DNA of 35,824 nt from NCBI RefSeq assembly GCF_900101505.1, contig NZ_FMZI01000025.1, positions 1-35,824 on the forward strand, written 5' to 3'. How positions within the stretch are numbered: the first letter of the stretch is position 1; every line of letters starts with the position of its first letter. Origin of the DNA: Antarctobacter albus. GTDB lineage: Bacteria; Pseudomonadota; Alphaproteobacteria; Rhodobacterales; Rhodobacteraceae. The position numbers and the translations under genes are program-made. Below, one piece after another: positions 20,554-35,824 of the stretch. The notes below the pieces were generated by a model. That model made no database searches and was not told the origin of the DNA. It saw only the letters and a program-made list of their open reading frames with translations.

Positions 20554-23500
20554 TCACGCCGCGAGCAGCAGGCGTGCCTGTTCCGCCTTGAGCGCGGCCC
20601 GCGCGGCGGTATAGGCGCCCCGTCCGGGCGCATTCGACAGTTCCGGGAACAGTGCCAGCAGTTCCGCGCGCGGCCCTGCGTCCAGACCGGCAAGCGACAG
20701 GTCGCCGGGCTGAAAGCTCTCGGTCCAGGCGCCGTCGGACATGACCAGTTCATGCGCGTCGAACATGAAATGCACATAGGTCACGCCCTCGACCGGACAG
20801 ACCCGCGTGATACCGGGGCGGCCGACCAGGTGGCTGGCGGCCACCAGCACCTCGTCCTCGCCGAACAGAAGTTCGATCGCGGCGCCGGCCATCACCACCC
20901 GGTGCTGCGGGGACACCAGCATGTCGCGTTCCGGCACACCTCGTCCCAGCGCCCCTGCCTCGATCCGGACCGGGCGCAGGTCCGGTGTCGCCGCCAGGTC
21001 TGCGGCGCCGATCGTCTTGGCCCCTGCCCAGAGTACGCGCTTGTAGCCGTTGTCGCGGGTCAACACACGGACACCGGGGGTAATGTCGGCCACGTCGACC
21101 TCGCCCTTGTTGGTCTTGATCAGGGTGCCGGGCGTGAAACAGGGCGTGTAATTGACGTTCTCGATTTCTGAGAAGGTCAGGGTGGACCCGTCCAGCCATT
21201 CGACCTTGCCGGATTCCGCACCGGTCATGGTGATCTTGGCCGGGCCGGTGATGTTGAGCGTGTCGCCTGCGGTCTCTCCGCTTTCGCCGCCGGTCACGGT
21301 GAGATGGGCGCCGTTCATGTCATCCGCGCTGGCGTTGAAGACATCATCCCCACCGTCGCCGGAGGCGAAATCGCCCGACCCAAGGGTGAACGTGTCGGCG
21401 CCATCGCCGCCGGTCAGGCTGTCGGCGCCCACACCGCCAATGAGGGTGTCGGCCCCGGTGCCGCCATCCAGCGTGTCGTTCCCGCTGCCGCCAATCAGGC
21501 TGTCGTCACCGCCATCGGCAAAAACGGTCATCCCCGTGCTGTCCAGGGTTCCGTCGACGGTATCGTCTCCACCACCAAGGGTCAGCGCCTCGATTTCCGA
21601 GAATTCGGCGCTGTCGGTGCCATCGCTGATGGTGCCGGCCTCGTCGCCCGAATAGGTCACGGTGACCGCGCCGGGCAGGGCCGAGGCATCCAGCGTATCC
21701 TCGTCGTTGCCTGTGGTGACGGTCTCTCCGCCGGAAATCGTGTCGGCGCCAAAGCCGTCCTGCAGGACTATCCGGTCTTCGTCGGCGCCACCGGACAAGA
21801 GATCGTCGCCGGCGCCGCCCAAAAGGACATCTGCGCCATCGCCGCCTTCCAGCGTGTCGGCCCCGGCGCCGCCGTCCAGGGTATCCTTGCCCGCGCCGCC
21901 CAGAACACTGTCGTCGCCCAGGCCCGCCTGCACGATGTCGTCGCCGCCGTAGGCAAGGACGGTGTCGTCCTGCGAGCCGCCGATGCCGTCGCCATTGTCG
22001 ATGAAATCGCCGTCGGGGTCGCCCGAATAGCCGGCGTCGATGGTTTCGCCCAGGGCAGTACCCTCGACGATAAAGTCGCCGGTGAACAGCGGGATGCCCA
22101 TCGCGGCCAGTTGTTCGGGGCTTTGCAGCTCGGCGACGGGAACACCGACCAGCGTGATGCTTTCGCCGTTGGGGAAGGTCAGGATCGCATGGCCCGAACC
22201 GTCGCCCACGGTGTCGGTCACGGTCACGTCCTCCGTCGAGACGGGGTTCCCGGACAGGTCCGTCAACGCGCTGACGTCCAGCAGGTCATTGCCCGCGTAG
22301 GCGCCGCCGCCCAAGTCGGTCGGGGTCTCGAAACTGGACAGGACATCGTCGCCCGACCCGTCCGCCAGCACAACCACGTCGGTTTCACCGTCGCCGGCGC
22401 CGACGTCGATGGTGTCATCGCCCGCCCCGCCGTCGACAGTGTCGGCGCCGGACGAGGTCAGCAGGCTGTCGTTGCCATCGCCGCCGGACACGCTGTCATT
22501 GTCGAACCCGGAAAAGATGGCGTCGTCGCCGCCGCCGGCCAGGATCGTGTCGTCACCGTAGTTGCCGATGATGTGCTCGGCACCGCCCGAGCCGATCACG
22601 CTGTCGTTGCCGGTGCCCATCTGGAAACGTTCGATCTCGGCGAACTGGGTCGTGCTGATGCCGTCAGTAAGCGTGCCGGCCTCTTCGCCGGTGAAGGTGA
22701 CAGTGATGTCGTCCGAAATGGCCGAGAAGTTGATCCGGTCGCCTTCGGTCTCTCCGGTTTCGCCGCCGATGATGCTGTCGTTGTCCAGCGAGGCGTCGAG
22801 GAAGATCTCATCATCTCCGGCCTCGCCGTAGACGGTGTCGTCACCGGCGCCCGCGTCGATCGTATCGTCGCCAGCCCCCGCGAGGACAACGTCGTCATCG
22901 TCCCCGGTGGCGTTGTCGGCATTGTCGATCCGGTCGCCTTCGGGGTCGCCGGTGTAGACGTCGTTTATCAGGTCATCGCCGATGCCGCCTGAGACGACGT
23001 AATCAGGGGGCACGGGGGGAATGCCCATCGCGATCAGTTGTTCCGGGGAAGAGACGGCCGAGGCGCTGACGCCCACGAGGATCAGTTTTTCGCCGTTGGG
23101 AAAGAACAGGATCGCGTCCCCGGAACCGTCGCCGATGGTATCGGTCACGGTCACGTCCGCCACGTTGACTGGATCGCCACCCGCATCGGTCATCCCCGAC
23201 ACGTCCAGCATGTCATTGCCCGCGTAGGCGCCACCGCCCAGGTCCGTCGGCGCGGCAAAGCCCGTCACGATGTCTTCGCCAGAGCTGTTGCCAAGCACCA
23301 GCCTATCCTTGCCGGAGCCCAAGACGATGGTTTCGATGTCGTTGAAGTTCAGCGTGTCGGCCCCGTCGGTGACGGTGCCGATCTCGGGGTTCACATGGGT
23401 CAGGTCGACGGTCAGGTCGTCGGTGACGGCCGACAGATCCAGCACGTCGCCGTCGGTTTCATCCACGCCCTCGGCGTCCACGGTGTCGTTGCCGAACCCG

Positions 23501-25581
23501 TTTTCGATGTGAAAGGTGTCGTCACCCCAACCGCCCCAGAGATAGTCGTCCCCGGCACCGCCATAAAGCGCGTCGTTGCCGAAAGAGCCGCGCATCCAGT
23601 CGTTGCCGTCGCCACCATAAAGTGTGTCGTCGCCTTCGTTGCCCTCGACCGTGTCGTCTCCCTCGCCGCCGGACACATAATCGTCCCCGGTCTCGCCATA
23701 GATCGAGTCGCTGCCCGCGCCCCCGGAAATAGAGTCGCCGCCTTCGTTGCCATAGAGGCTGTCGTCGCCGGCGCCCCCCGTGATCGTGTCTGCACCATCG
23801 CCGCCGCGCAGCGTGTCATTGTCGGTGCCGCCGTCGATCACGTCGTCGGCCTGCGTGCCGACGATGGAGTCGTTCCCGGCGCCGCCATCGACCGTGATGC
23901 CCGCGTTGGCCGGGCCATACTGGGCAAAGAAATCGTCATCCTGATCAGTCAGTGTCAGGCGTTCGATTTCGGCAAAGCTTAGCGTATCGGTGCTGTCCGT
24001 CGCGGTCCCGGCTTCGTCGCCGGTCATGGTCACGTCGATGCCGACGCTCATGTCCGAGAAATCCAGCGTGTCAAAATCGGTGCCGGTGCTGACGGCCTCG
24101 CCACCGCGGATCACGTCGGCACCAAACCCATCGGTCACGACGATCACGTCGGCGTCGGCGCCGCCATCGATCGAATCCGCATCTGCCCCGCCGTGCAGCG
24201 TGTCCTGGCCAGTGCCACCGGTCAGAGTGTCCTTGCCCGCCATGCCATAGACCAGGTCATCGCCCGCGCCGGCGTCGATCAGGTCATCCTGTGTTTCCGG
24301 GGTGGCGGAAACGACGGTCGGCGCGTCGGTGAAACCCGTGGTCGTGAAGGCATAGTTTGTCCCGGCGCCGCGAGAGGTCACGACAAAGACCAGTTCCTGT
24401 TGTTCGGAATAGCTGAACTGGGCCCAGTGACTTTGGTCCACGTTGTCGGAACTGGTGCTGTCGGATTGCGCGCCCAGTTCCTCGCCGTCGTCGGTGGCAG
24501 TCAGGTTGGTGCTGGCAGAGGAGAGGCCCAGGCTTTCCACGTCTGCCGTCTGCGCGGTCACGCTTTCGGCGGTGGTGTCGATGTCCTGGAAGGTGAACGT
24601 GCCGGTGATCTTGATCGGCTCACCGGTGGCCTGGTCATAGAACTCGAACCCCAGGGTAACGCCGGTGCCTGCCTCGGCGGCGGCATCGCGGTTGATGTAG
24701 ACCGAGTTGTCGTTGAACTCGATCTGGATGTTTGGATCGTCCGCGTCCAGAATCGTCAACCGGGCCTGAACGACGATGCCTTCATCCGTGACACCGATGT
24801 TGTCGTAGACGGCATACATGCCCACGACGCCGGTGCCGGCGTCGCCGGTTTCGCTGATCGCGGTGAAATCGAAAGAGGACAGGGTGCCCGCGCTGGCACC
24901 CACGTCGCTGCCGTCACCATAGATCACGTCGTCGCCATCGCCCGCGCTGATGGTGTCCTGGCCGGACCCGCCGGTGATCACGTCTGCGCCCGCGCCGGTG
25001 GTGATGCTGTCGGCACCGGTCCCGCCGTCGATGGTGTTGTCGCCGCCCAGGGCGTCGATCACGTCGTCGCCCGTGCCGCCATGCAGCACGTCCGATCCCG
25101 TGTCCGAGCCAAGCGTGTCATTGCCGTCGCCGCCGATCAGCGTGTTGTTGCCGCCGGTGGCACTTGCGATGTCCGCGCCGTCACCCAGGTTGACGAAATC
25201 ATCGCCGTCGATCCCGCTGACCGTGTCGTTGCCATCCAGCGAAAAGACAGTGTCGGTGCCGCCACCAAGGTCGATGTTCTCGCCGCGGTCGCTGCCGGCA
25301 TAGGAATCTGACCCCTCGGGTAGGATCATGTTGGTGAAGGATTCGAACTGCGTGCCTCCACCGAGCCGCGCGTCCGGAAAGCCGCTGTGCCAGATGTCGC
25401 CGACGGTATAGGTGGTCGAGCCGTTGGAAATCTGCAGTTCGCCGACCCCGGCGTTGTAGGACACCGAGTAGTTCGAGCCCAAGTTCGAGAAATCCAGCGT
25501 GTGGCCCGCACTGCTCTGGTAGACGTTGCCCCAGAAGAAGGGTGAATTCCAGTTCGAAGCCGTAACAATGTACGTCGCCAT
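20554..25581 (-). CDS. Giant RTX (hemolysin-type Ca-binding repeat) protein with C-terminal Hint domain
   Basis: A 1675-residue acidic protein. Residues 1-95 are a non-repeat head (MATYIVTASNWNSPFFWGN). Most of the rest is glycine/aspartate nonapeptide repeats (GGxGxDxUx) in many blocks, such as GGDGNDTLGSD and GGAGDDSLYGNEGGD. Such repeats fold as Ca-loaded beta-rolls once outside the cell, as in type I secretion substrates. Non-RTX beta-rich spacers are interspersed. From Cys1481 (CFTPGTLIKTNKGEVDVADI) to about 1615 lies a Hint_2 (hedgehog/intein-like) domain with SPQHRVV, which may self-cleave. No Sec signal is present. A roughly 370-bp internal duplication is visible. The ATG follows AAGGA. 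Likely role: surface or matrix protein; no ABC/HlyD exporter genes are in the window. Confidence 0.92.
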   Translation of the reverse strand: MATYIVTASNWNSPFFWGNVYQSSAGHTLDFSNLGSNYSVSYNAGVGELQISNGSTTYTVGDIWHSGFPDARLGGGTQFESFTNMILPEGSDSYAGSDRGENIDLGGGTDTVFSLDGNDTVSGIDGDDFVNLGDGADIASATGGNNTLIGGDGNDTLGSDTGSDVLHGGTGDDVIDALGGDNTIDGGTGADSITTGAGADVITGGSGQDTISAGDGDDVIYGDGSDVGASAGTLSSFDFTAISETGDAGTGVVGMYAVYDNIGVTDEGIVVQARLTILDADDPNIQIEFNDNSVYINRDAAAEAGTGVTLGFEFYDQATGEPIKITGTFTFQDIDTTAESVTAQTADVESLGLSSASTNLTATDDGEELGAQSDSTSSDNVDQSHWAQFSYSEQQELVFVVTSRGAGTNYAFTTTGFTDAPTVVSATPETQDDLIDAGAGDDLVYGMAGKDTLTGGTGQDTLHGGADADSIDGGADADVIVVTDGFGADVIRGGEAVSTGTDFDTLDFSDMSVGIDVTMTGDEAGTATDSTDTLSFAEIERLTLTDQDDDFFAQYGPANAGITVDGGAGNDSIVGTQADDVIDGGTDNDTLRGGDGADTITGGAGDDSLYGNEGGDSISGGAGSDSIYGETGDDYVSGGEGDDTVEGNEGDDTLYGGDGNDWMRGSFGNDALYGGAGDDYLWGGWGDDTFHIENGFGNDTVDAEGVDETDGDVLDLSAVTDDLTVDLTHVNPEIGTVTDGADTLNFNDIETIVLGSGKDRLVLGNSSGEDIVTGFAAPTDLGGGAYAGNDMLDVSGMTDAGGDPVNVADVTVTDTIGDGSGDAILFFPNGEKLILVGVSASAVSSPEQLIAMGIPPVPPDYVVSGGIGDDLINDVYTGDPEGDRIDNADNATGDDDDVVLAGAGDDTIDAGAGDDTVYGEAGDDEIFLDASLDNDSIIGGETGETEGDRINFSAISDDITVTFTGEEAGTLTDGISTTQFAEIERFQMGTGNDSVIGSGGAEHIIGNYGDDTILAGGGDDAIFSGFDNDSVSGGDGNDSLLTSSGADTVDGGAGDDTIDVGAGDGETDVVVLADGSGDDVLSSFETPTDLGGGAYAGNDLLDVSALTDLSGNPVSTEDVTVTDTVGDGSGHAILTFPNGESITLVGVPVAELQSPEQLAAMGIPLFTGDFIVEGTALGETIDAGYSGDPDGDFIDNGDGIGGSQDDTVLAYGGDDIVQAGLGDDSVLGGAGKDTLDGGAGADTLEGGDGADVLLGGAGDDLLSGGADEDRIVLQDGFGADTISGGETVTTGNDEDTLDASALPGAVTVTYSGDEAGTISDGTDSAEFSEIEALTLGGGDDTVDGTLDSTGMTVFADGGDDSLIGGSGNDTLDGGTGADTLIGGVGADSLTGGDGADTFTLGSGDFASGDGGDDVFNASADDMNGAHLTVTGGESGETAGDTLNITGPAKITMTGAESGKVEWLDGSTLTFSEIENVNYTPCFTPGTLIKTNKGEVDVADITPGVRVLTRDNGYKRVLWAGAKTIGAADLAATPDLRPVRIEAGALGRGVPERDMLVSPQHRVVMAGAAIELLFGEDEVLVAASHLVGRPGITRVCPVEGVTYVHFMFDAHELVMSDGAWTESFQPGDLSLAGLDAGPRAELLALFPELSNAPGRGAYTAARAALKAEQARLLLAA
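21955..22325 (-). repeat. Internal duplication in RTX gene, copy 2
   Basis: Encodes TDLGGGAYAGNDLLDVSALT ... DVTVTDTVGDGSG ... FPNGESITLVGV ... SPEQLAAMGIP ... GDPDGDFIDN. It matches copy 1 at about 22885-23255 in the same order. Limits are approximate. Confidence 0.75.
22885..23255 (-). repeat. Internal duplication in RTX gene, copy 1
   Basis: Encodes TDLGGGAYAGNDMLDVSGMT ... DVTVTDTIGDGSG ... FPNGEKLILVGV ... SPEQLIAMGIP ... GDPEGDRIDN, the partner of copy 2. The two differ by many substitutions, so the duplication is not recent. Confidence 0.75.
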
Positions 25582-25890: not shown

Positions 25891-27501
25891 TCACAGCAGC
25901 GCGCGGATCGGTTCCAGCAGGCCCTTGTTGCGCAGCGTGCGCACCGGGTAGCTGTCGTCGTTCACCAGCCTGTCCAGCGAGAACCCCGGCTCGATCTTGG
26001 CCAGTTTCTCTGCCACGGCCTGGGCCTTGTCCAACTGACCCTCCAGCGCATAAAGCGCCAGCAGGTGACGGTGGCCGGGCCGGGACAAGGGGGCAGAGCG
26101 CACCGCTGCCTCGCCGGCCTCGATCGCCTCCTGCGGGCGGTTGCAGGCAATGGCCACGATACAGTGGCCGGTGTCCCAATAGTGTTTGAACGGCGACGTC
26201 CGCGCGATCCGGCAGGCCCGTTCCGAGGCGGTGAATCCGCCTTCCATGTCGCCCGACAGGATCAGCGCCTCGGACAGGGATTTCCAGGCAAAGGCGTTGG
26301 CCGGGTTCCGTTCGACCGCGTTCTGCGCAAGGTCCAGTACACCGGCGGTATCGCCCAGTGCGGTGCCGCGGACCTTGGAGATGATCGCATGGACCAGCAC
26401 GTTGTCCGGGCTCAGCTCCATCGCGCGGTAATGCAGGTCGACGGCCTCTTCGAGGAGGCCCTCCTGGTCGTCTTCGGCCAGTTCCATCATCTGGGTCAGC
26501 CGGATCATGCTGGCCCAGGCCAGGTAAATTCCGTTTTCATCGCGGCGAAAGGCCTGGTCCATCAGCCCGTAGGCCTCGCGCAGGGCGTCTTTCTCGAAGG
26601 AAAACATCCGGTAGAGCCCAAGGCGGGACAGTGCCGTCGCCCGCGTTTCGGGGCGGTCCTTTTCCAGCACATGCGGCAGCTTGCCGATGATCTGGTCGGC
26701 GGCCTCGAAGACGGTGCGCGAGACGTCGATTTCCGCGCTCAGGATGTCCTCGAGCCGATCCAGTTGTTGCAGCTTGGAATAGAGGATGCGCGCGCTTGGC
26801 TGATGCGTGGCCTTGATGAACAGCGCGTGTCCGCCGTCGCCATTTTCCATCAACTGGGTGCTGACGGACACGTCGCTGACCGGGGCGCCCTCGGGCAGGG
26901 GCATGTCCGAATCCGATTGTCGCCATGCGCGGACCTGCTCGGCGATGTTCTCGCCGATCTGGTTGGCCAGGACCTCGCCCAGCATCCTCTCTCGTCCCGG
27001 CGCCTCCGTGCTGGCGCGACAGTTGATCAGGATACCGCGGCTGTCGGTCGGGCTGGCCGAGGCCAGTTTCGACAAGAGCGCGGCTCGTTCCTGGCGCAAC
27101 CAGTCCTCGAACTCGGGGTCGCGCACGTCGATGCCCTGCAACAGCTCGACGCGGTCATCCTCGGGCACCACCTCTTCGTGCAGGTCGACGGTGACGGCGC
27201 GCCGGTCCAGCGTGACCGAAGACCTGTCCGCCCGGATCAAATCGGCCGCCGGGCCAAGTGCATTGCGCAACTTGGACAGGGCCTGACGCAGGTTGGCGCT
27301 GGCCTGTTCGGGGCCGAAAGTCGACCACAGCTTGTCTTCCAGCCAGCGGCGCGGGCGGGTCATATCGGGGCTGAGCGCCAGCATCGCCAGCAGCGCCTGG
27401 TTCTTGGCCCCCTTGATGGGCAGCGCAGCGCCGTCCGCATCCCGGACCAGGAAAGGCCCGAGCACGGTGATGGTGATCCTCTGGGATGCAGGCCCTGCCA
27501 T
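25891..27501 (-). CDS. SARP/BTAD-like transcriptional regulator with TPR-like C-terminus
   Basis: A 536-residue protein. I chose ATG 27499-27501 (MAGPASQRITITVLGPF) because AGGAG lies 6 nt upstream; an in-frame GTG 33 nt further up lacks such a site. Residues about 8-100 are an OmpR-like winged helix of the SARP type: ITVLGPFLVRDADG, then LEDKLWSTFGPEQASANLRQ, ALSKLRNALG and RSSVTLDR. The rest is mostly helical and includes TPR-like units (YRAMELSPDNVLVHAIIS, NAVERNPANAFAWKSLSEAL). The middle part (ILINCRASTE..., VSVSTQLME) may be a ligand or nucleotide-sensing segment. The ATG lies about 150 bp from the divergent PAP2/haloperoxidase gene, so control of that gene is a fair guess. Confidence 0.8.
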   Translation of the reverse strand: MAGPASQRITITVLGPFLVRDADGAALPIKGAKNQALLAMLALSPDMTRPRRWLEDKLWSTFGPEQASANLRQALSKLRNALGPAADLIRADRSSVTLDRRAVTVDLHEEVVPEDDRVELLQGIDVRDPEFEDWLRQERAALLSKLASASPTDSRGILINCRASTEAPGRERMLGEVLANQIGENIAEQVRAWRQSDSDMPLPEGAPVSDVSVSTQLMENGDGGHALFIKATHQPSARILYSKLQQLDRLEDILSAEIDVSRTVFEAADQIIGKLPHVLEKDRPETRATALSRLGLYRMFSFEKDALREAYGLMDQAFRRDENGIYLAWASMIRLTQMMELAEDDQEGLLEEAVDLHYRAMELSPDNVLVHAIISKVRGTALGDTAGVLDLAQNAVERNPANAFAWKSLSEALILSGDMEGGFTASERACRIARTSPFKHYWDTGHCIVAIACNRPQEAIEAGEAAVRSAPLSRPGHRHLLALYALEGQLDKAQAVAEKLAKIEPGFSLDRLVNDDSYPVRTLRNKGLLEPIRALL

Positions 27502-27654
27502 GCGCTCTCCTCGCAACTTGCGAAAATCTAGCACCGCCGTGACAGCGCGGCAACGGACGTGAAATTTCCGTTAACGATTGCCCCTATTGGCAGTTAGGCT
27601 TTGACCTGTGGCAGGCAGTGCCAAAAACTCCGCCCAAAATTTCATGAGGATGTC

Positions 27655-28761
27655 ATGCCCGTTTCCGGTCTCTACAATTCGCAGAACTCGCAGAATTCCC
27701 AAAACAGTCAGAATTCGCAAAATTCCCAGAACTCGCAGAATTCGCAGAACAGCCAGGCGGCGGAAAACTCGCAGGCGGGGCCGGACAACACCTTTGCCAG
27801 TGCCGCCCTGGGCCAGGCGCGGGACGGAACCGTGGGCTACTGGGACGGCACGGCGGACCGTGTCCCGAAACAGGACGGCCGCAGCGGCTGGGACGCGCTC
27901 ACCGCGATGGCGACGGGACCCCGGCGTGCCGTGATGGATGCCTGCCTGCAAGGGCTGTTCAAGGTCACGCTGGAGCCCGTGGCCAAGAGCAAGCCTGCGA
28001 CGGGCACGGTGGCGCTGGGGGATGACCCGCTGGTCACGCTCGAAGCGCCGACCAGCACGTTCCTCGCGGACAAGCAGCTGCATTACCTGCGGACCTACGC
28101 CGACCTGCGCGGGGATCGCCTGAACGAGATCATCATGCAGACCGGCGATATCCAGAGCTTTTTCGGCCTCGTCGGTTACATGGCGCCGGACGCCACCAAG
28201 TGGACGCTGGCGCTGAACCAGGCAATGTTGCGGCTTTGCACCGTGATCGAGATGCCCTTCAAACACGGGTTCGACGTGGCCCGCCCCATCGCCATGTCCC
28301 GCAAGGTACAGCCGCTGATCCAGACGCCGGGGCATGGTTCGTGGCCCTCGGGCCATGCGACAGAGGCCTTTGCCTGCGCCACGCTGCTGTCTCGGCTGTT
28401 CCTGAACGCGCCGGTCGATCCGGTCGAGCAGATCAAGGCGGGCAGTGAGTTGTACCGCCACGCCGAACGGATCGCGATGAACCGAACGGTCGCGGGCGTG
28501 CATTTCCCCACCGACAGCATGGCCGGGGCGGTGCTGGGCGTGACCGTCGCCGAGGCGCTGATCAACCTGCTGGAAGGAACGCCGCAGACCCGGACGCGCG
28601 TGTTCCACGGCGCGGGCTACGACGGGGACTTTACCCTGGCGCGCATGGCCGAGGCATTGGACAACGGGCAAGAAATCGCCTCGGGCACCTTGTCCCTGCC
28701 GACGGGGCTGGTGCCCGGATGGCTGGCCAAGATGTGGGACGAGGCCAAGGACGAGTGGTGA
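27655..28761 (+). CDS. PAP2/vanadium-dependent haloperoxidase-like enzyme with (NSQ) repeat N-terminus
   Basis: A 368-residue protein; ATG 27655 follows GAGGAT. Residues 8-34 are nine Asn-Ser-Gln units, with one more at 38-40. The catalytic triad of motifs shared by acid phosphatases and vanadium haloperoxidases is complete: Lys203-x6-Arg210-Pro211 (KHGFDVARP), Pro-Ser232-Gly-His234 (PSGHATEAF) and Arg277-x5-His283-x3-Asp287 (RTVAGVHFPTD), the last with Asn instead of the usual Ser before Arg. His283 would bind phosphate or vanadate. The segment KVQPLIQTPGHGSWPSGH is typical of bacterial haloperoxidase-like PAP2 proteins. There is no signal peptide and there are no membrane helices, unlike classic PAP2 lipid phosphatases. 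Whether it is a phosphatase or peroxidase cannot be settled here. It converges on the subtilase gene, 7 nt apart. Confidence 0.85.
   Translation: MPVSGLYNSQNSQNSQNSQNSQNSQNSQNSQNSQAAENSQAGPDNTFASAALGQARDGTVGYWDGTADRVPKQDGRSGWDALTAMATGPRRAVMDACLQGLFKVTLEPVAKSKPATGTVALGDDPLVTLEAPTSTFLADKQLHYLRTYADLRGDRLNEIIMQTGDIQSFFGLVGYMAPDATKWTLALNQAMLRLCTVIEMPFKHGFDVARPIAMSRKVQPLIQTPGHGSWPSGHATEAFACATLLSRLFLNAPVDPVEQIKAGSELYRHAERIAMNRTVAGVHFPTDSMAGAVLGVTVAEALINLLEGTPQTRTRVFHGAGYDGDFTLARMAEALDNGQEIASGTLSLPTGLVPGWLAKMWDEAKDEW
27676..27756 (+). repeat. 9-bp tandem repeat encoding (Asn-Ser-Gln)9
   Basis: Nine consecutive 9-bp units (consensus AATTCGCAG) encode NSQ without a break. Units differ only at synonymous positions (AAT/AAC; TCG/TCC/AGT/AGC; CAG/CAA), suggesting selection on the peptide. 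Two further codon triplets on, a tenth NSQ occurs. Confidence 0.95.
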
Positions 28762-28768
28762 CCGGCGT

Positions 28769-30802
28769 CTAGCTGGCGGGCAGGGCGTCCGGCAATTCCA
28801 CTACCGCCTCACCCAGCCGCGAGTCCCGCGTGCCGGTCGGCACCAGGCAGGCCGGATCGATGTCCTCCAGCCGGGTCGACGTCGGGTTCTGGGCATTGGC
28901 GACGATCCGGGTCGACGACAGGGCCAGGGCGCGCGTCAGGCGGCCCGCTGCGGCGCTGGTCCCCGCCAGCCGCCGCGTGCTGCCGCTCAGCGTTCCGGAT
29001 GCCCGGATACCCGCCGAAAACGGCCCGGTGCCAATTCTGGCGGCGACACTGGGTCCGGGCTGGGACCACGATGCGCCCTCGCCGCTGTAGGGCGCGGGGC
29101 GATAGTTCCCGACCTCTGACGAGGCTGTCCAGGCCGATGCCTGTGCGGCGCCTACGCTGAACACCTGCCGGCAGTCCGCCGCGACATAGGCATTGTGACA
29201 CCCCTCATCGCTGATCGGACCGGCGCCGGGGGCGACATAGCCCGCGCGGCTTTCGTCCCAATCGTAGGCGGCGGGATGGTCGAGGTAGCTTTGCCGTCCG
29301 CGCACTTCCGACCCGCGGATAGCATCGTCGCGCTGGACCTGCACCAGCACCTCGCCCGAGCCTTGCAGCGAAACGATCCAGGCCCCGGCGGGGGCCTCCG
29401 GCTCTCCGGCCTTCTGGCCGCGCGTGGGGGCCAGGGCCAGAACGTAATATGCCTGTTGTTCGGTCTGCTTGTCGCGTTTGCGCGCGGGCACATGATAGAC
29501 GCGGGCCAGCGCTGCGCCGTCCTCCCGTTCGAGCGACCGGATCTCGCCCGGCTGCAGCTGGGCCAGACCCGAGGTCGTGCCATCGGGGGCGGTCAGCCCC
29601 AGCTGCAGGTCGGCAGACGCACCGTTCCGACAATGGATCTCGATGAAGCTGGCGGTTTCGTCATCGGGCTGCACACGCCAGTCAAGTTGCGCGGGGACCT
29701 CGGTGGGGGTGAGCCGCGCGACCTGGCTGCTGCGATAGCTGTTGCCAAAGGCCCAGACCAGCCGAACCGGCTGGCCGGTGACCTCTTCCCAGGTTTGCGC
29801 CTCGCGGGCCATCTGGTGTTCGACGAAATGCGTGCCGTCCTTGGGACCTGCCAACACGCCCAGCGAGACGTTCACGATGACGGGCGCCGTGGCGTCCACC
29901 CTGGCGGCCTGCCGCAGGATCCAGCGCAGACCCATGACCAGGTAGCTTTCGACCCAGGTGCCAGAGGTGTCGTCGATGCTTTCGGGGGGCAATTGAACGC
30001 CCAACAGAGGCCAGTCGCGCGCCGGGTCATCGGCATTCTCGGGATCGGCCCCGGCGGCCAGGTCAAGGACATGGGTGCCGTGGGTGGTGGCAAACCCGGT
30101 CTCGTCGCGGGTCCTGTCGGGGTAGATCGCGGCGTTCAGCGCGGCGTAGGTTGTGCTTTCGTCGCCGCGCGCCAGCAGGTCGTCGATTTCCGCAGTGTCC
30201 AGGATACGCCCCGCCAGCGTGCCTTTGGGGGTCCGGGCTTGTTGTTCCAGCGCCTGCAGCCAGAGGGCGTGAAACCGCGTGCGCCTTGGGGCGGTGCCCC
30301 GGCAGAAACGCGCATTGAGAAAGCCGATGCCGTCGTCGATGATTGCGACGATCGGCGCGCCCGGTGTGGGTGAGGGCGGCACCGCCCCGGCGGGTTCCGG
30401 CGGCATCGGATCGTTCGCCAGCTGAACCGGGCAGCCCGAGTCGATCACCTCGAACAGGTCGTCATGCAGGCTGTCCGCCGTGCCGATGCGCCGGTACAGC
30501 ATGTAGCTGTCCGGCAGGTTCGGGTGCGCCTGCGGATCGTCGATGCGCGCAACAAGCGCCGCAAGTTCGGTATCGTCCATCCGCAGGGGCGAGTCCTGCT
30601 GCCCCACGAGATCGCGCAGACGGCGGCGCGCGGCCTGCATGTCATCGGTCGAGTGCAGATGCACAAAAAGCGGCGCGTAATCGGGCCCGCGGTCCGGGGG
30701 CATCGGCGGTAGCATGTCGCGGCGCAGCCCGATGAGGCGTGACCAGTCAAGACAGGCATCGCGAAACGCGTGCTCTCTGGCATCCGTCCAGCTGTATCCC
30801 AT
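28769..30802 (-). CDS. Subtilisin-like (S8) serine peptidase without signal peptide
   Basis: A 677-residue S8-family peptidase. I prefer ATG 30800-30802 (MGYSWTDAREHAF), which follows AGGGGGA; a GTG 57 nt upstream is also in frame. The catalytic residues are Asp156 (VAIIDDGIG), His241 (THGTHVLDLAAG) and Ser616 (LAGTSAAAG). The oxyanion Asn lies in WAFGNS. The distance from His to Ser (375 residues) is much longer than in subtilisin because of a large beta-rich insert (QLDWRVQPDD..., YYVLALAPTRG..., WIVSLQGSGEVLVQV). Residues 1-140 form an unrecognised N-terminal domain. No secretion signal or obvious prodomain is visible, so it may act inside the cell. It lies between the two haloperoxidase-like genes, on the opposite strand. 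Confidence 0.87.
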   Translation of the reverse strand: MGYSWTDAREHAFRDACLDWSRLIGLRRDMLPPMPPDRGPDYAPLFVHLHSTDDMQAARRRLRDLVGQQDSPLRMDDTELAALVARIDDPQAHPNLPDSYMLYRRIGTADSLHDDLFEVIDSGCPVQLANDPMPPEPAGAVPPSPTPGAPIVAIIDDGIGFLNARFCRGTAPRRTRFHALWLQALEQQARTPKGTLAGRILDTAEIDDLLARGDESTTYAALNAAIYPDRTRDETGFATTHGTHVLDLAAGADPENADDPARDWPLLGVQLPPESIDDTSGTWVESYLVMGLRWILRQAARVDATAPVIVNVSLGVLAGPKDGTHFVEHQMAREAQTWEEVTGQPVRLVWAFGNSYRSSQVARLTPTEVPAQLDWRVQPDDETASFIEIHCRNGASADLQLGLTAPDGTTSGLAQLQPGEIRSLEREDGAALARVYHVPARKRDKQTEQQAYYVLALAPTRGQKAGEPEAPAGAWIVSLQGSGEVLVQVQRDDAIRGSEVRGRQSYLDHPAAYDWDESRAGYVAPGAGPISDEGCHNAYVAADCRQVFSVGAAQASAWTASSEVGNYRPAPYSGEGASWSQPGPSVAARIGTGPFSAGIRASGTLSGSTRRLAGTSAAAGRLTRALALSSTRIVANAQNPTSTRLEDIDPACLVPTGTRDSRLGEAVVELPDALPAS

Positions 30803-30954
30803 GTCGATCCCCCTGATCCTGCACGCGAAATCCGCCGGGTCAGCAAAGGTCTTTTTCACTCACCGGTCAAGGAAGTGGGATCGGTGCCTGTCGGGTTTGC
30901 GCAGAATTCACGCCAACCGGATAAGCACGCCGCGAGTTTTCAGCGGGTTTTCAT

Positions 30955-30967: not shown

Positions 30968-31071
30968 GCGAATTGCGCAGCATTTGCGATCCGTTCACGG
31001 GGGCATGTGCATGGTCGGGTTAACGTACGGTCAAGTCGTGCAACAGTATGCTTCGGGCTGGGGGAAAGACC

Positions 31072-32556
31072 ATGAAACGCAACGGGACCGCGACAAGGTT
31101 CGGTGTGATCGACGGGGACGGTCGGGGCAGGTCGCTTCGGGACCGGATCGCGATGCCTGTGCCGCCCGACCTGTCGGCGCCGGAGCTGGCCGCCGACATG
31201 GCGGAGCTCTTTGCCCTGGGGCTGGTTCAGGATCTACGCGCCGAGGCGCTGCAGGACCCGCATTGCGCCGTCAGGATCGACGGGGCCACCCGGTTCACGA
31301 TGCATGAACTGCTCTGCGAGTTGCGCAATCTCAGCTGGTTCGATGCGCGCGTGCCGCTTGCCGGGACAGGACCGGACAGATCGCCGGACGTGCAACCGGG
31401 CCAGATGGGGGCCAGCCAGCGCCGGGCCCTTCGCTGCAACGCGGATTTCCAGCTGACGCTGGAAACCCTCTTGCGGGGCGGTGTTGTCTTGCGCGGTGGC
31501 GGTCCGGTTCTTTCGGCATTCTGGGACAGTGACCAAATGGAGCCGCATCCCAAGCGCGAGCCCGGTGTCTGGCCGACCGAAGAGGCGGCGATGTCGGAAT
31601 GGATCGGCTGGTGTGCCGAGCACAGCCAGGCCGGTCTGCGCCTGCCCTGGGCGGCGGTGCGCCCGCAGCAGGACCCCAGCCTGGGGGATCGCGCCGAGAC
31701 GCTGCACCGAACGCCGCCCGCGCGTCCCTTTCACAACGCCACGCTGGTTGCGTTGGCACGGGGGACGAACATGGCACCGGGTCTGCCCGGCACGTGGACC
31801 GGGTCGCGCCTCTTTGCGCTGATGGCAGAGGGCGAGGCGCTTGCCAGCCGGTTTGCCCGTGCCCAGGTCTCGGAAAAGGGCCGGATGCCGCGCCCGGCGG
31901 TCACGGCGGCGCGGATGACCGTCTGGTTGGGCAGCGAAGAGGGCGTCTCTGCCCCGGAAAGCGATACCCATCGTGCGGCGGCAGAGGAACTCGTGAGTGC
32001 CGCCCCCAACCTGGTTCACTGGGTCAGCCGGGCGAACCGCGCGCGGCGCGGGCCGCAGCGGTTCGAGGCGTCGCTCTTCCTGCCCTTGGCCGGCCCCGAG
32101 CGTCAGCATTTGACACCCTCCGACCTGGGCGCCCATGCGGTTGTCGCGGGCGTTCTGGCTACGCTGGTCAAGGCCGTCTTCGACACGTCGCGGCGGACCC
32201 AGTTGCAGGCAGTGGGGCAGGGCGGCCCCGTGCTGGCGCTGGAGGATCAAACCGACCGTCTGGCGGCGAATATCGGGCTGATGCGGTGCGTCACCGGCGG
32301 ATATTTCCCGGCCGAGAACATCCAGGATCTGCGCCTGGGGCAGGCCATTGCCCTGCACCTGCTGCGCGACCGCTTGGAACAGGACAACCGCAGTGCGCAG
32401 ATGGGCCTTCGCGATTTCGACGGCCAAAGCCTGCAACTGGTTTCGCATCCGCGCCGGTTCGGACGAGGGTATGCCGAATTGCGCCGCGATGCCGAGCCGA
32501 TTGCCTGGCCGCAGGAGGCGGGCCACCCGGCGGCACATTTGACGGCGGTCAGCTAG
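31072..32556 (+). CDS. Divergent vanadium-bromoperoxidase-like protein lacking the vanadate-binding His
   Basis: A 494-residue protein; ATG 31072 follows GGGGGAAAG. No signal peptide. From about residue 350 it aligns by eye with the C-terminal part of algal vanadium bromoperoxidases. DLGAHAVVAGVLATLVKAVF corresponds to PSGHATQNGAFATVLKAL, which places His355 at the acid-base His. LEDQTDRLAANIGLMRCVTG and then IQDLRLGQAIALHLLRDRL match the FEGEINKLAVNVAFGRQMLG and IQGLLLGETITVRTLHQEL stretches. Arg405 is kept, but the ligand His six residues later is Tyr411. The Ser and Gly of PSGH are also replaced. The enzyme may therefore be inactive, or use another cofactor or chemistry. The N-terminal half is not recognisable to me. 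Alignment is from memory of the family, not from a search. Confidence 0.6.
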   Translation: MKRNGTATRFGVIDGDGRGRSLRDRIAMPVPPDLSAPELAADMAELFALGLVQDLRAEALQDPHCAVRIDGATRFTMHELLCELRNLSWFDARVPLAGTGPDRSPDVQPGQMGASQRRALRCNADFQLTLETLLRGGVVLRGGGPVLSAFWDSDQMEPHPKREPGVWPTEEAAMSEWIGWCAEHSQAGLRLPWAAVRPQQDPSLGDRAETLHRTPPARPFHNATLVALARGTNMAPGLPGTWTGSRLFALMAEGEALASRFARAQVSEKGRMPRPAVTAARMTVWLGSEEGVSAPESDTHRAAAEELVSAAPNLVHWVSRANRARRGPQRFEASLFLPLAGPERQHLTPSDLGAHAVVAGVLATLVKAVFDTSRRTQLQAVGQGGPVLALEDQTDRLAANIGLMRCVTGGYFPAENIQDLRLGQAIALHLLRDRLEQDNRSAQMGLRDFDGQSLQLVSHPRRFGRGYAELRRDAEPIAWPQEAGHPAAHLTAVS

Positions 32557-33386: not shown

Positions 33387-33791
33387 ATGATCGCCCGCCT
33401 TGCCCTGCTGAGCCTGATGGCCGCGCCCGCCTTCGCCCAGGACGCCGACATCGGACGCGCGCATTTCTACACCCATTGCGCCACCTGCCACGGGTTGGAA
33501 GGCAAGGGGGACGGGCCGATGGCCGGTGTCCTGACGATCCCACCCACCAACCTGACCGAACTTACGATCCAGAACGGAGGCGTCTTTCCCCTGGCGCGGG
33601 TCGTCCAGCGGATCGACGGACGTGATCCGCTGGTGGCGCATGGCTCACCGATGCCGGTCTTCGGCGATTTCTTCGAACGGTCATTCGACGTTCCGATGAA
33701 GACACAGGCGGGTCAGCCGATCCTGACATCTCAGCCGGTGGTGGATCTGGTCGCCTACCTGTTGGAACTGCAACGGATCGAGCAGGACTAG
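33387..33791 (+). CDS. Small periplasmic c-type cytochrome
   Basis: A 134-residue protein with a signal peptide (MIARLALLSLMAAPAFA). Haem attachment is Cys31-Ala-Thr-Cys34-His35 (HCATCHG), and the likely sixth ligand is Met in HGSPMPVFGD. This is a single-haem class I fold of the cytochrome_CBB3/cytochrome C type that carries electrons in the periplasm. AGGAGG precedes the ATG. Its partner oxidoreductase is not in the window. The stop codon overlaps that of the convergent lipoprotein gene (CTAG at 33788-33791 serves both). Confidence 0.92.
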   Translation: MIARLALLSLMAAPAFAQDADIGRAHFYTHCATCHGLEGKGDGPMAGVLTIPPTNLTELTIQNGGVFPLARVVQRIDGRDPLVAHGSPMPVFGDFFERSFDVPMKTQAGQPILTSQPVVDLVAYLLELQRIEQD

Positions 33792-34483
33792 CCGCCGGTC
33801 CTGCGGCAGATGCCCGTCGTCTGCGCCCCTTTCCAGGGCAGAATCACGGTGGGCCGGTCAATCGCCGCGTCCAGCCGGTCTACGGGCATGTATTTCCCGA
33901 TCATTCCCCGCAGCCGTGCGGTGCGGGGCGCGTTCGGGTCCAGCAGGCGGCAACAGACGTATTCCTCGACGATGCTGCCCTGCTGTTCATAGCCGAAGGA
34001 CAGGAAATCGCGCGTTGCCTCGGTGTCGAAAAGATAAGGGTCATTCGAGGCACTGTGTTCCTGCGCCGCCTTGAGCGGGTGGTAGCCGGTCAGCTTGCGG
34101 TTCTGCCACTGCCAGACATGGGTCGCCTCATGGGCAAAGAGCATCGCATCGAACAGATCGATCCGGTCTGGGTAGCCGGCCAGGAAGTCTTCCCTGTACA
34201 CGTCATCCCGCAGCAGCACCTTGTTGAACAGCACGGTGGCCGCCGGTGATACCGTCACCGTGCGGGTCTTGGTGATCGGGGGCCAGATGCGTTCCTGGCA
34301 GGTGGTGCGAGGGCGAACGGGGATGTCATAGGTCACGGCGCCCGCAGGGTTGCCATCGATCAAGCGGATTCGTTTCGGGTCGATGTCGTCGCCGTGAAAG
34401 GCCCGCAGAAAAGCGGTTTCGTTCGGCGTGGCCGAGCGGCCGCAGGCTGTCAGGATCAAAAGGGCAAAGAGGGCAATGCGCAT
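33788..34483 (-). CDS. Putative lipoprotein with HExxH zinc-metallopeptidase-like motif
   Basis: A 231-residue protein. The N-terminus MRIALFALLILTACG is a lipoprotein signal with lipidated Cys14. His118-Glu-Ala-Thr-His122 in LFAHEATHVWQWQN is an HExxH motif, the zinc site of many peptidases. Similar 'AHEAtHVwQ' proteins in alphaproteobacteria are annotated as DUF4157-like or hypothetical vgr-related proteins. No catalytic third ligand can be assigned with confidence. Four further Cys are in CGRS, TTCQER, VCCRLL and GICRR. It is convergent with the cytochrome c gene. Confidence 0.75.
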   Translation of the reverse strand: MRIALFALLILTACGRSATPNETAFLRAFHGDDIDPKRIRLIDGNPAGAVTYDIPVRPRTTCQERIWPPITKTRTVTVSPAATVLFNKVLLRDDVYREDFLAGYPDRIDLFDAMLFAHEATHVWQWQNRKLTGYHPLKAAQEHSASNDPYLFDTEATRDFLSFGYEQQGSIVEEYVCCRLLDPNAPRTARLRGMIGKYMPVDRLDAAIDRPTVILPWKGAQTTGICRRTGG

Positions 34484-34656
34484 GATGTGAGATTGGCCGG
34501 GGGCGGGTCGCTTGGCAAGCAGCAATGGCCTGCCCTGGGCCTGTCGGGCTTCGGTCGTGTCGACGTAATCGGCGGCAGCGGCAAATGACCGTCCGTCAGG
34601 ATGGGGAGGTGTCCCGAACAGGGCGTGGTGGAATCCAGGGTCCGCAGTGTTCGTGA

Positions 34657-35212: not shown

Positions 35213-35479
35213 TCACCTTGAGCGGACTAGCCGAGCTCTTATTCACTGCGCCAATTGGCTTTCACTCATGTCGCCAGGGACGACATTGACCACCAAATCG
35301 TCGATGGCATCGTCCTCTTGAAGCTCCAAGCTGCAGCCACTGCACTCGACAAGCAAATCGGTGAGTAGCCAAGCTGTTCGCTTGTTCGCATCGACGAAAC
35401 CGTGCGACGTGGCGACGCCATGCAATAAAGCTGCCGCCTTCTTGTGAATTGGTCGATGATAGTCATGATAGGGGCGCCC
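35213..35479 (-). pseudogene. Doc/Fic-family toxin gene, truncated by an IS and carrying a premature stop
   Basis: The reading frame from the IS junction encodes GRPYHDYHRPIHKKAAALLHG, followed by VATSHGFVDANKRTAWLLTD. This contains the Fic/Doc active-site motif H-x-F-x-D-x-N-K-R (normally HxFxDGNKR, here Ala for Gly). Doc proteins of type II toxin-antitoxin systems phosphorylate or AMPylate target proteins. The roughly 50 N-terminal residues are missing because an IS5-family element starts at about 35480. At the other end a TGA at 35243-35245 follows QLAQ; beyond it the frame continues IRARLVRSR to a second TGA at 35213-35215. The first TGA thus probably replaced a Trp codon. No antitoxin gene is visible. 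Confidence 0.7.
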
Positions 35480-35824
35480 TAGGCTCAGGACTCGTTCTCC
35501 CTCAAAGCCAGAAGATGACGGTCGCGGCGAGAGCTATCGCCGAGAAGAAGGTCTGCGGGCATCGGTCGTAGCGTGTCGCAACGCGCCGCCAGTCCTTGAG
35601 CCTGCCGAACATGATCTCGATGCGATTACGGCGTTTGTATCGCCGTTTGTCATACTTTACCGGCGTCTTCCGTTTCTTCCGGCCCGGGATGCAGGGGCGT
35701 ATCTTCTTGTCCTGCAAAGCTTCTCTGAACCAGTCGGCATCGTAGCCACGGTCTCCGAGAAGCCATTTCACGTTGGGCAGCCCGCTGACGAGCGCACGCG
35801 CCCCGACGTAATCGCTGACGGGAC
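35480..35824 (-). mobile_element. IS5-family (IS427-type) insertion sequence, right part
   Basis: The element holds the transposase 3' half and runs off the window. The inner end is placed at the CTAG at 35479-35482 because doc coding ends there, and GGCTCAGGACTCG looks like a terminal repeat. IS5-group elements often insert at CTAG or TNA. The exact boundary and the other end cannot be checked here. Confidence 0.65.
35502..35824 (-). CDS. IS5-family transposase, C-terminal part (5' end outside window)
   Basis: At least 107 residues of a DDE transposase. They include LGDRGYDADWFREAL with the second catalytic Asp, the basic KKRKTPVKYDKRRYKRR segment, and RIEIMFGRLKDWRRVATRYD with the catalytic Glu. 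It ends ALAATVIFWL, the standard C-terminus of IS427-group enzymes. In this group the protein is often made from two overlapping frames, of which only the second is in view. The frame is open to the window edge. Confidence 0.93.
   Translation of the reverse strand, partial: PVSDYVGARALVSGLPNVKWLLGDRGYDADWFREALQDKKIRPCIPGRKKRKTPVKYDKRRYKRRNRIEIMFGRLKDWRRVATRYDRCPQTFFSAIALAATVIFWL

Follow-up and report, generated by a model that had tools for sequence, protein, structure and literature searches.

The gene at positions 31072 to 32556 (forward strand) of the window, by which we mean the whole 35,824-nucleotide stretch of Antarctobacter albus DNA analysed here, encodes a true homologue of vanadium bromoperoxidases (VBPOs) in which much of the catalytic site has been lost. 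The gene is under purifying selection, its neighbourhood is conserved, and related gene cassettes carry an intact VBPO. We interpret these patterns to indicate a maintained family of pseudoenzymes rather than a gene in decay, and we hold with moderate confidence that the VBPO-like protein is a regulatory or structural subunit of its cassette. A preliminary description, made from the letters alone, had proposed a pseudoenzyme, a scaffold or a new activity; the first two remain in accord with the site loss, with a catalytic set that is incomplete in all 25 proteins of this type and with the selection on the gene.

The open reading frame (ORF) is uninterrupted and gives a protein of 494 amino acids, with an in-frame ATG at 31048 as an alternative start. 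The protein contains HAVVAGVLATLVKA and IQDLRLGQAI, together with R405, Y411 and LGAH at residues 352–355. Searched against the PDB with phmmer, it matched nine sequences, all of them VBPOs (best E 1.9e-13), and no others up to E 10. A profile of 14 proteins of the same type (window-type proteins hereafter) matched ten PDB sequences, again all VBPOs (best E 1.1e-37), and aligned with a separate profile, built from six intact VBPOs, at a probability of 100% (E 6.1e-46, 406 columns). The phmmer and profile matches argue that the resemblance is not due to chance, and homology extends over the catalytic domain. The aligned bromoperoxidase motifs, the R405-x5-Y411 pair and the LGAH of the preliminary description are thus real, and the profile search that it recommended recovers the VBPO family and no Pfam PAP2 domain. 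More generally, the protein matched no Pfam, NCBIfam or PADLOC model. On the strength of homology, we expect the vanadium bromoperoxidase fold to be retained.

Likeness to the VBPOs 5lpc/8q21, 1qhb/1up8 and 1qi9 (in part presumed to come from A. marina, Corallina and Ascophyllum, respectively) runs over most of the length and includes the two Arg, His355 in the SGH position and the core motifs. The window protein differs from them in the replacement of the Lys, helper His, Gly and axial His and in a C-terminal tail of its own, and it leaves about 160 N-terminal residues of 5lpc unmatched. The tail is an extension that ends WPQ...HLTAVS. A terminus of LT(A/Q)(V/I) plus one residue occurs in 20 of the 25 window-type proteins and was not seen in intact VBPOs; this conserved tail looks like a docking tail. 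Relatives are found in Mameliella genomes (91, 91 and 73% identity), Antarctobacter heliothermus (75%) and Maliponia aquimaris (64%).

The window-type set comprises 22 genomes from the family search and three Mameliella genomes. Catalytic positions were assigned by alignment to the A. marina VBPO 5lpc, with the Lys428 and His513 numbering taken from the available part of PMC11871015, a source that in the same part describes an axial vanadate-binding His in all known VHPOs. In this alignment V266 falls at the active-site Lys, R274 at the first Arg, T348 at His513 (the helper His), G353-A354-H355 on the (S/A)-G-H motif, R405 at the second Arg and Y411 at the axial His. R274 and R405, which we take to be the two oxyanion-binding Arg of an active VBPO, are therefore present, as is H355; the axial His, the active-site Lys, the helper His and the Gly are replaced by Y411, V266, T348 and A354. 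The preliminary description was right that the metal ligand is replaced, and what it saw was one part of a wider loss that includes the Lys, the His513 equivalent and the Gly. With these four residues gone, vanadate halogenation would not be expected from this protein.

Across the 25 window-type proteins the axial position holds Tyr in ten, Phe in six, His in five, Ala in two, Cys in one and Trp in one. The active-site Lys is missing from every one of them, including the five that keep the axial His, and Arg274 and Arg405 are each present in 24. The helper His is found in 9/25, the Gly in 2/25 and the acid-base His in 18/25. The preliminary description had raised Tyr411 as a meaningful replacement and called for homologues; with six residue types across 25 proteins, and Phe in the sister species Mameliella sediminis (L033), a new conserved Tyr ligand was rejected. 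The full catalytic set occurs in none of the 25, compared with 9 of 13 proteins in a comparison group of VBPOs. Incomplete members of the latter group are L059, from which Lys and Gly are missing, L069, where the acid-base His is lost, and the short or divergent L063 and L070. The L059 gene (7652–9631) is a 674-residue VBPO frame near a TPR regulator, with Lys changed to Thr, Gly to Ala and the His residues kept; it is possibly a half-way stage in active-site loss.

As a control we considered the 134 alignment columns that are invariant in the nine intact VBPOs, for which mean retention in the window-type proteins is 0.39. Among these columns the Lys lies at the bottom (0.00) and the two Arg near the top (0.96), and the axial His (0.20) and helper His (0.36) fall in the middle of the distribution. 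This mid-distribution placing indicates that constraint on both His was lost rather than specially reversed. Apart from the Lys (and the Gly), the lost catalytic positions are no more eroded than many other columns that are invariant in intact enzymes. The window-type proteins also have conserved residues of their own, namely D351, E415, P413, D395 and L314. Of these, Asp351 and Glu415 reach a conservation of 0.96; intact VBPOs carry Tyr/Phe and Asp, respectively, at the two positions.

Values of dN/dS for the VBPO-like gene, from six pairs, are 0.092, 0.097, 0.131, 0.149, 0.205 and 0.244, similar to those of its neighbours. Internal stops are absent from 23 of the 25 window-type copies. The two exceptions are the Antarctobacter heliothermus copy (L034/L036), which has an early TGA, and the copy in G020 (L011/L045), in which a TAG near the 3' end removes the conserved tail; both loci have the remaining cassette genes. 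A search for the VBPO-like protein in family genomes gave matches in 32 of 394 (E<=1e-3, with its own genome, intact VBPOs and weak matches counted), and a class-wide search with a mixed profile gave 5 of 385, its own genome included. No match was found in the plasmid records searched. These counts refer to a sample of genomes, and genes in the fetched loci were called by an ORF heuristic.

In a tree of 34 rows, a branch with support of 100/100 and a length of 1.57 parts 22 window-type rows from 12 other VBPO rows. The tree omits L031, L032, L034, L063 and L070, is unrooted, includes four long rows and has a bootstrap that had not settled. For these reasons we base the probable direction of change, loss rather than gain, on the sharing of the intact form with algae and cyanobacteria.

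The VBPO-like gene is divergent from a gene for an S8 (subtilase) protease of 696 residues (28769–30859, reverse strand), in which Asp, His, Asn and Ser are present and a crude scan found no obvious signal peptide. Beyond this lies a PAP2-superfamily enzyme (27655–28761, forward strand; 27655 is the probable start of an ORF that opens at 27601) with complete K-x6-R, H(S-5), PSGH and R-x5-H. Divergent from it is a probable winged-helix and TPR regulator of 547 residues (25891–27534, reverse strand), whose Trans_reg_C, TPR and AfsR matches all fall below curated cut-offs; its Phaeobacter counterpart is named 'winged helix-turn-helix' by NCBI. The labels SARP-like, RRNPP and Tat-like, as applied to these systems, are tentative and reflect at most weak profile matches or a crude motif scan. 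None of the four cassette proteins matched PADLOC anti-phage defence models at E<=0.01, and an anti-phage defence reading was set aside on that ground. Beside the cassette, at 20554–25581 (reverse strand), we observed a gene for a 1675-residue RTX repeat protein with a Hint domain, and similar genes lie in 12 other compared loci.

The PAP2 phosphatase motif set (K-x6-RP, PSGH and (S)R-x5-H-x3-D) is intact in the neighbour at 27655–28761, which belongs with the PAP2 phosphatases and small VHPOs, and broken in the VBPO-like protein. PAP2 enzymes have their nucleophile His at the position corresponding to the lost axial His. A direct phosphatase role for the VBPO-like protein was rejected on the loss of that position and the missing Pfam PAP2 match. 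The preliminary description had placed a second, intact family member next to the gene. That neighbour is indeed intact and conserved; it is, however, a member of a different PAP2-superfamily branch, is separated by the S8 gene and is not an algal-type VBPO.

The regulator, PAP2 and S8 genes (the trio) lie on the same stretch as the VBPO-like gene in 17 of 25 loci, and in an 18th if a contig break is allowed (G067, where the S8 gene adjoins and the regulator and PAP2 genes sit at the end of another contig). Of the seven other loci, two have the regulator alone nearby (L040, L049) and five have no trio gene. Trio genes occur elsewhere in the genome in G190, G053, G127 and G082 (in G082, the S8 gene by profile only). 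Among the 22 window-type genomes, PAP2 and S8 were not found at E<=1e-10 in G086, G262 and G330, the last of which also lacks the TPR regulator. The VBPO-like gene can thus persist without the trio, which weakens its link to the PAP2 and S8 partners. A 245-residue ORF (33788–34525, reverse strand) is a conserved chromosomal neighbour, present near the VBPO-like gene in 20 compared loci; it occurs also at four loci without the trio nearby (L043, L046, L048, L054), and it was not found near the gene in L053, L055 and L060. Further along the window, at 35246–35771 (reverse strand), short ORFs look, by eye, like remnants of a Fic-type gene and of an insertion-sequence transposase.

Site loss is confined to the VBPO-like member, since the eight catalytic positions are complete in its PAP2 partner, both at the 17 loci and in the G067 piece. 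Among 57 cassette PAP2 ORFs, none lacks the Lys, either Arg, the acid-base His or the axial-type His, and 47 have all eight positions (32/32 in an earlier set). In the ten exceptions PSGH is replaced by PAGH, PSAH, PAAH or PSNH, once with Tyr for the helper His as well. No incomplete PAP2 adjoins a window-type gene; the PAGH form of L057 adjoins an intact VBPO. The S8 proteins show Asp, His, Asn and Ser in 35/37, and the remaining two are fused proteins that are misaligned and show DTA, HGTA and GTSAA.

Five cassettes combine the trio with an intact VBPO (L056, L057, L061, L087 and L103/L165). Intact VBPOs also occur with the trio absent from the flanks (L058, L062, L064, L065), and L067 and L068 have too little flank to judge. 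In L056 (2988–5765) and L061 (11753–14446), PAP2 and S8 are joined in one ORF, of 926 and 898 residues, with a Tat-like start; these ORFs adjoin a trypsin-like gene, a TPR regulator and an intact VBPO. Joint function of PAP2 and S8 is well supported by these fusions. A live-VBPO locus and a dead-VBPO locus occur together in three genomes (G053, G067, G345). A C-terminal WW-x-R extension is found in four of the five trio-linked intact VBPOs (not in L165) and is absent from L058, L062, L064 and L065; it appears also in the short VBPO ORF L063, whose flanks have no trio, and in L059, which has only the TPR regulator nearby. From these arrangements, the dead member has probably taken the live enzyme's slot in the cassette.

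We suggest that a single ancestral loss removed the active-site Lys of the window-type VBPO, and that the axial His, helper His and Gly then drifted by lineage as the two oxyanion-holding Arg stayed. The protein would have been kept as a non-catalytic part, in the position filled by an active VBPO in sister cassettes, with the PAP2/haloperoxidase-type enzyme, the S8 protease and the winged-helix/TPR regulator as the working pieces. It would act by binding a cassette partner, and its Arg pocket may either still take a phosphate-like anion or be closed by the newly conserved Asp351 and Glu415. The loss of catalysis, the retained core motifs and Arg, the new conserved residues and the seat of a live enzyme together fit a pseudoenzyme kept for binding.

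Alternatively, the window-type gene could be decaying and on its way out. This would account for the number of catalytic residues lost, the in-frame stops in 2/25 copies and the patchy distribution among family genomes. Counter to this, frames are open in 23/25 copies and in the window, dN/dS of 0.09–0.24 shows none of the relaxed selection expected of a pseudogene, the proteins share conserved residues and a C-terminal tail of their own, and the gene keeps a fixed chromosomal place with the same 245-residue neighbour in 20 loci. Decay is thus largely refuted for the window-type family, and we find it hardly credible. The case that the preliminary description saw as fatal to its reading, a private mutation in a decaying gene, is contradicted by the same dN/dS values and by the fact that none of the 25 proteins has a complete site.

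It is also conceivable, though in our judgement unlikely, that the protein has acquired a new enzyme activity, with the pocket and the two Arg serving other chemistry without vanadate, as in NapH3 and MarH2. Non-halogenase VHPO homologues are known, and in the available part of PMC12871659 it is the catalytic Lys and Ser that distinguish them; NapH3 catalyses an alpha-hydroxy ketone rearrangement according to the available part of PMC8407142. Like those homologues, the VBPO-like protein lacks both residues (V266, G353), and because Ala stands at the Ser position in intact VBPOs too, only the Lys is telling. A new site might be built from Arg274, Arg405 and His355 (the last kept in 18/25) with the newly conserved Asp351, Glu415, Pro413 and Asp395. 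However, positions 348, 353–355 and 411 vary between close relatives (Tyr or Phe at 411 within Mameliella), unlike a fixed site, and no biosynthetic enzyme turned up when Pfam was run on six proteins of the window and ten from relatives' loci, a minority of the neighbours. NapH3 and MarH2 are likewise non-halogenating members of the VHPO superfamily, but in the available parts of both sources the comparison is with selective chloroperoxidases of the NapH1 type and their roles lie in meroterpenoid pathways, whereas the PDB matches of the window-type are bromoperoxidases only. The non-halogenase homologues named there lie on the chloroperoxidase side and the window-type, by its PDB matches, on the bromoperoxidase side. 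A store or sensor of vanadate or phosphate, holding the oxyanion by the two Arg and the backbone with no axial His bond and reporting to the regulator, seems quite improbable. Both Arg persist in 24/25, and a chloroperoxidase mutant, H496A, is listed with a VO4-containing structure in the available part of the review PMC8407142, so that vanadate may still enter the pocket of a protein that has lost just its axial His. Against such a store or sensor, the active-site Lys is lost in 25/25 and the sequence offers no link between the gene and the regulation of phosphate or vanadate. We continue to favour a non-catalytic subunit.

The PAP2 partner has an unusual feature of its own. Positions 27676 to 27756 (forward strand) encode, at its N-terminus, a tandem array of nine identical Asn-Ser-Gln tripeptides, whose adjacent units have 7 codon pairs that are the same, 17 synonymous and 0 nonsynonymous. 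Arrays of a unit of 2–6 residues (score of at least 6) occur in all 61 cassette PAP2 ORFs (57 after removal of four duplicate places). They lie N-terminal of the PAP2 domain, with a median of 9.3 copies and 44 distinct units up to rotation; the weak cases are L079 (3.3 copies) and L086. Units shared across genera include GNQ, GHE and NR. A TPR regulator lies in the fetched stretch of 56/57 array-bearing ORFs (five below 150 bits and of a more distant type), and an S8 ORF in 47/57, two fusions not counted. Over all arrays, adjacent units give 1049 synonymous, 433 same and 9 nonsynonymous codon pairs, a ratio biased by a scoring that penalises amino-acid mismatches. Recent slippage alone is an unlikely origin, as adjacent units mostly differ at synonymous sites.

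Among other proteins of at least 150 residues in the array loci, 1/549 reaches a score of 12, compared with 30/32 of the called PAP2 proteins. A class-wide profile search, which matched 10 of 337 genomes, added 11 PAP2 places linked to a TPR gene; seven are outside the family, and all 11 have arrays. No array was found in a PAP2 protein without a TPR gene nearby (L118), and no control ORF from genomes without the TPR regulator (27 PAP2 loci, 23 ORFs scored, 15 with PSGH) reaches a score of 8; the array thus distinguishes the cassette PAP2 from these 23 ORFs. We rejected the notion that the NSQ repeat is a genome-wide tag, since a DNA pattern of three NSQ units matches this array alone in the window's genome. 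The array pattern speaks for selection on which short peptide is repeated, and its identity within proteins and diversity between genera suggest a recognition or signal element.

RRNPP-type TPR regulators work with peptide signals. The cassette shares a similar logic, with a DNA-binding and TPR regulator near a protease and a repeated short peptide; the likeness is one of gene arrangement, and the cassette differs in that the repeat is part of an enzyme. We offer as a speculation, and a doubtful one, that the dead VBPO is an optional fourth part, an adaptor, of a recognition or signalling system in which the S8 protease cuts or gates and the TPR regulator reads a lineage-specific peptide 'password'. 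If this is true, the regulator, the repeat-bearing PAP2, the S8 protease and a live or dead VBPO would constitute an undescribed alphaproteobacterial system. In the literature covered (titles and abstract openings, with most subscription journals outside the scope), we found no account of PAP2 repeat arrays, of this cassette or of VBPO families that lack the metal site. The window-type family, conserved and on the bromoperoxidase side, has lost the metal site and retains its cassette place; together with the cassettes that have the live enzyme it forms a natural before-and-after pair, and allows us to ask what the haloperoxidase fold does without its metal.

The trio is also present on plasmids of Phaeobacter inhibens, in which the array pattern could be tested directly. 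Relatives of the PAP2 protein occur in 21 Phaeobacter plasmid records (for example NZ_CP010708 and NZ_CP081234), and some of the plasmids are typed as conjugative. Of seven Phaeobacter records opened, six have a winged helix protein, a PAP2 phosphatase and an S8 peptidase together by NCBI annotation; the seventh (M647) has a shorter regulator and no S8 gene named. A single unit, Asn-Ser-Phe, is common to eight plasmid records, seven from Phaeobacter and one from Parasedimentitalea; it is repeated six times in P. inhibens P66 and five times in P. piscinae P13. This indicates that the unit is stable within a genus as copy number moves, and that it mostly changes between genera. At seven further loci (L094–L100), a PAP2 gene lies beside a TPR regulator with no S8 gene in the stretch. 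Most of these arrays are NR or SR dipeptides, L095 and L099 have tetrapeptide arrays, and five of the PAP2 proteins have PSNH in place of PSGH; these loci are perhaps a second kind of repeat-PAP2 system.
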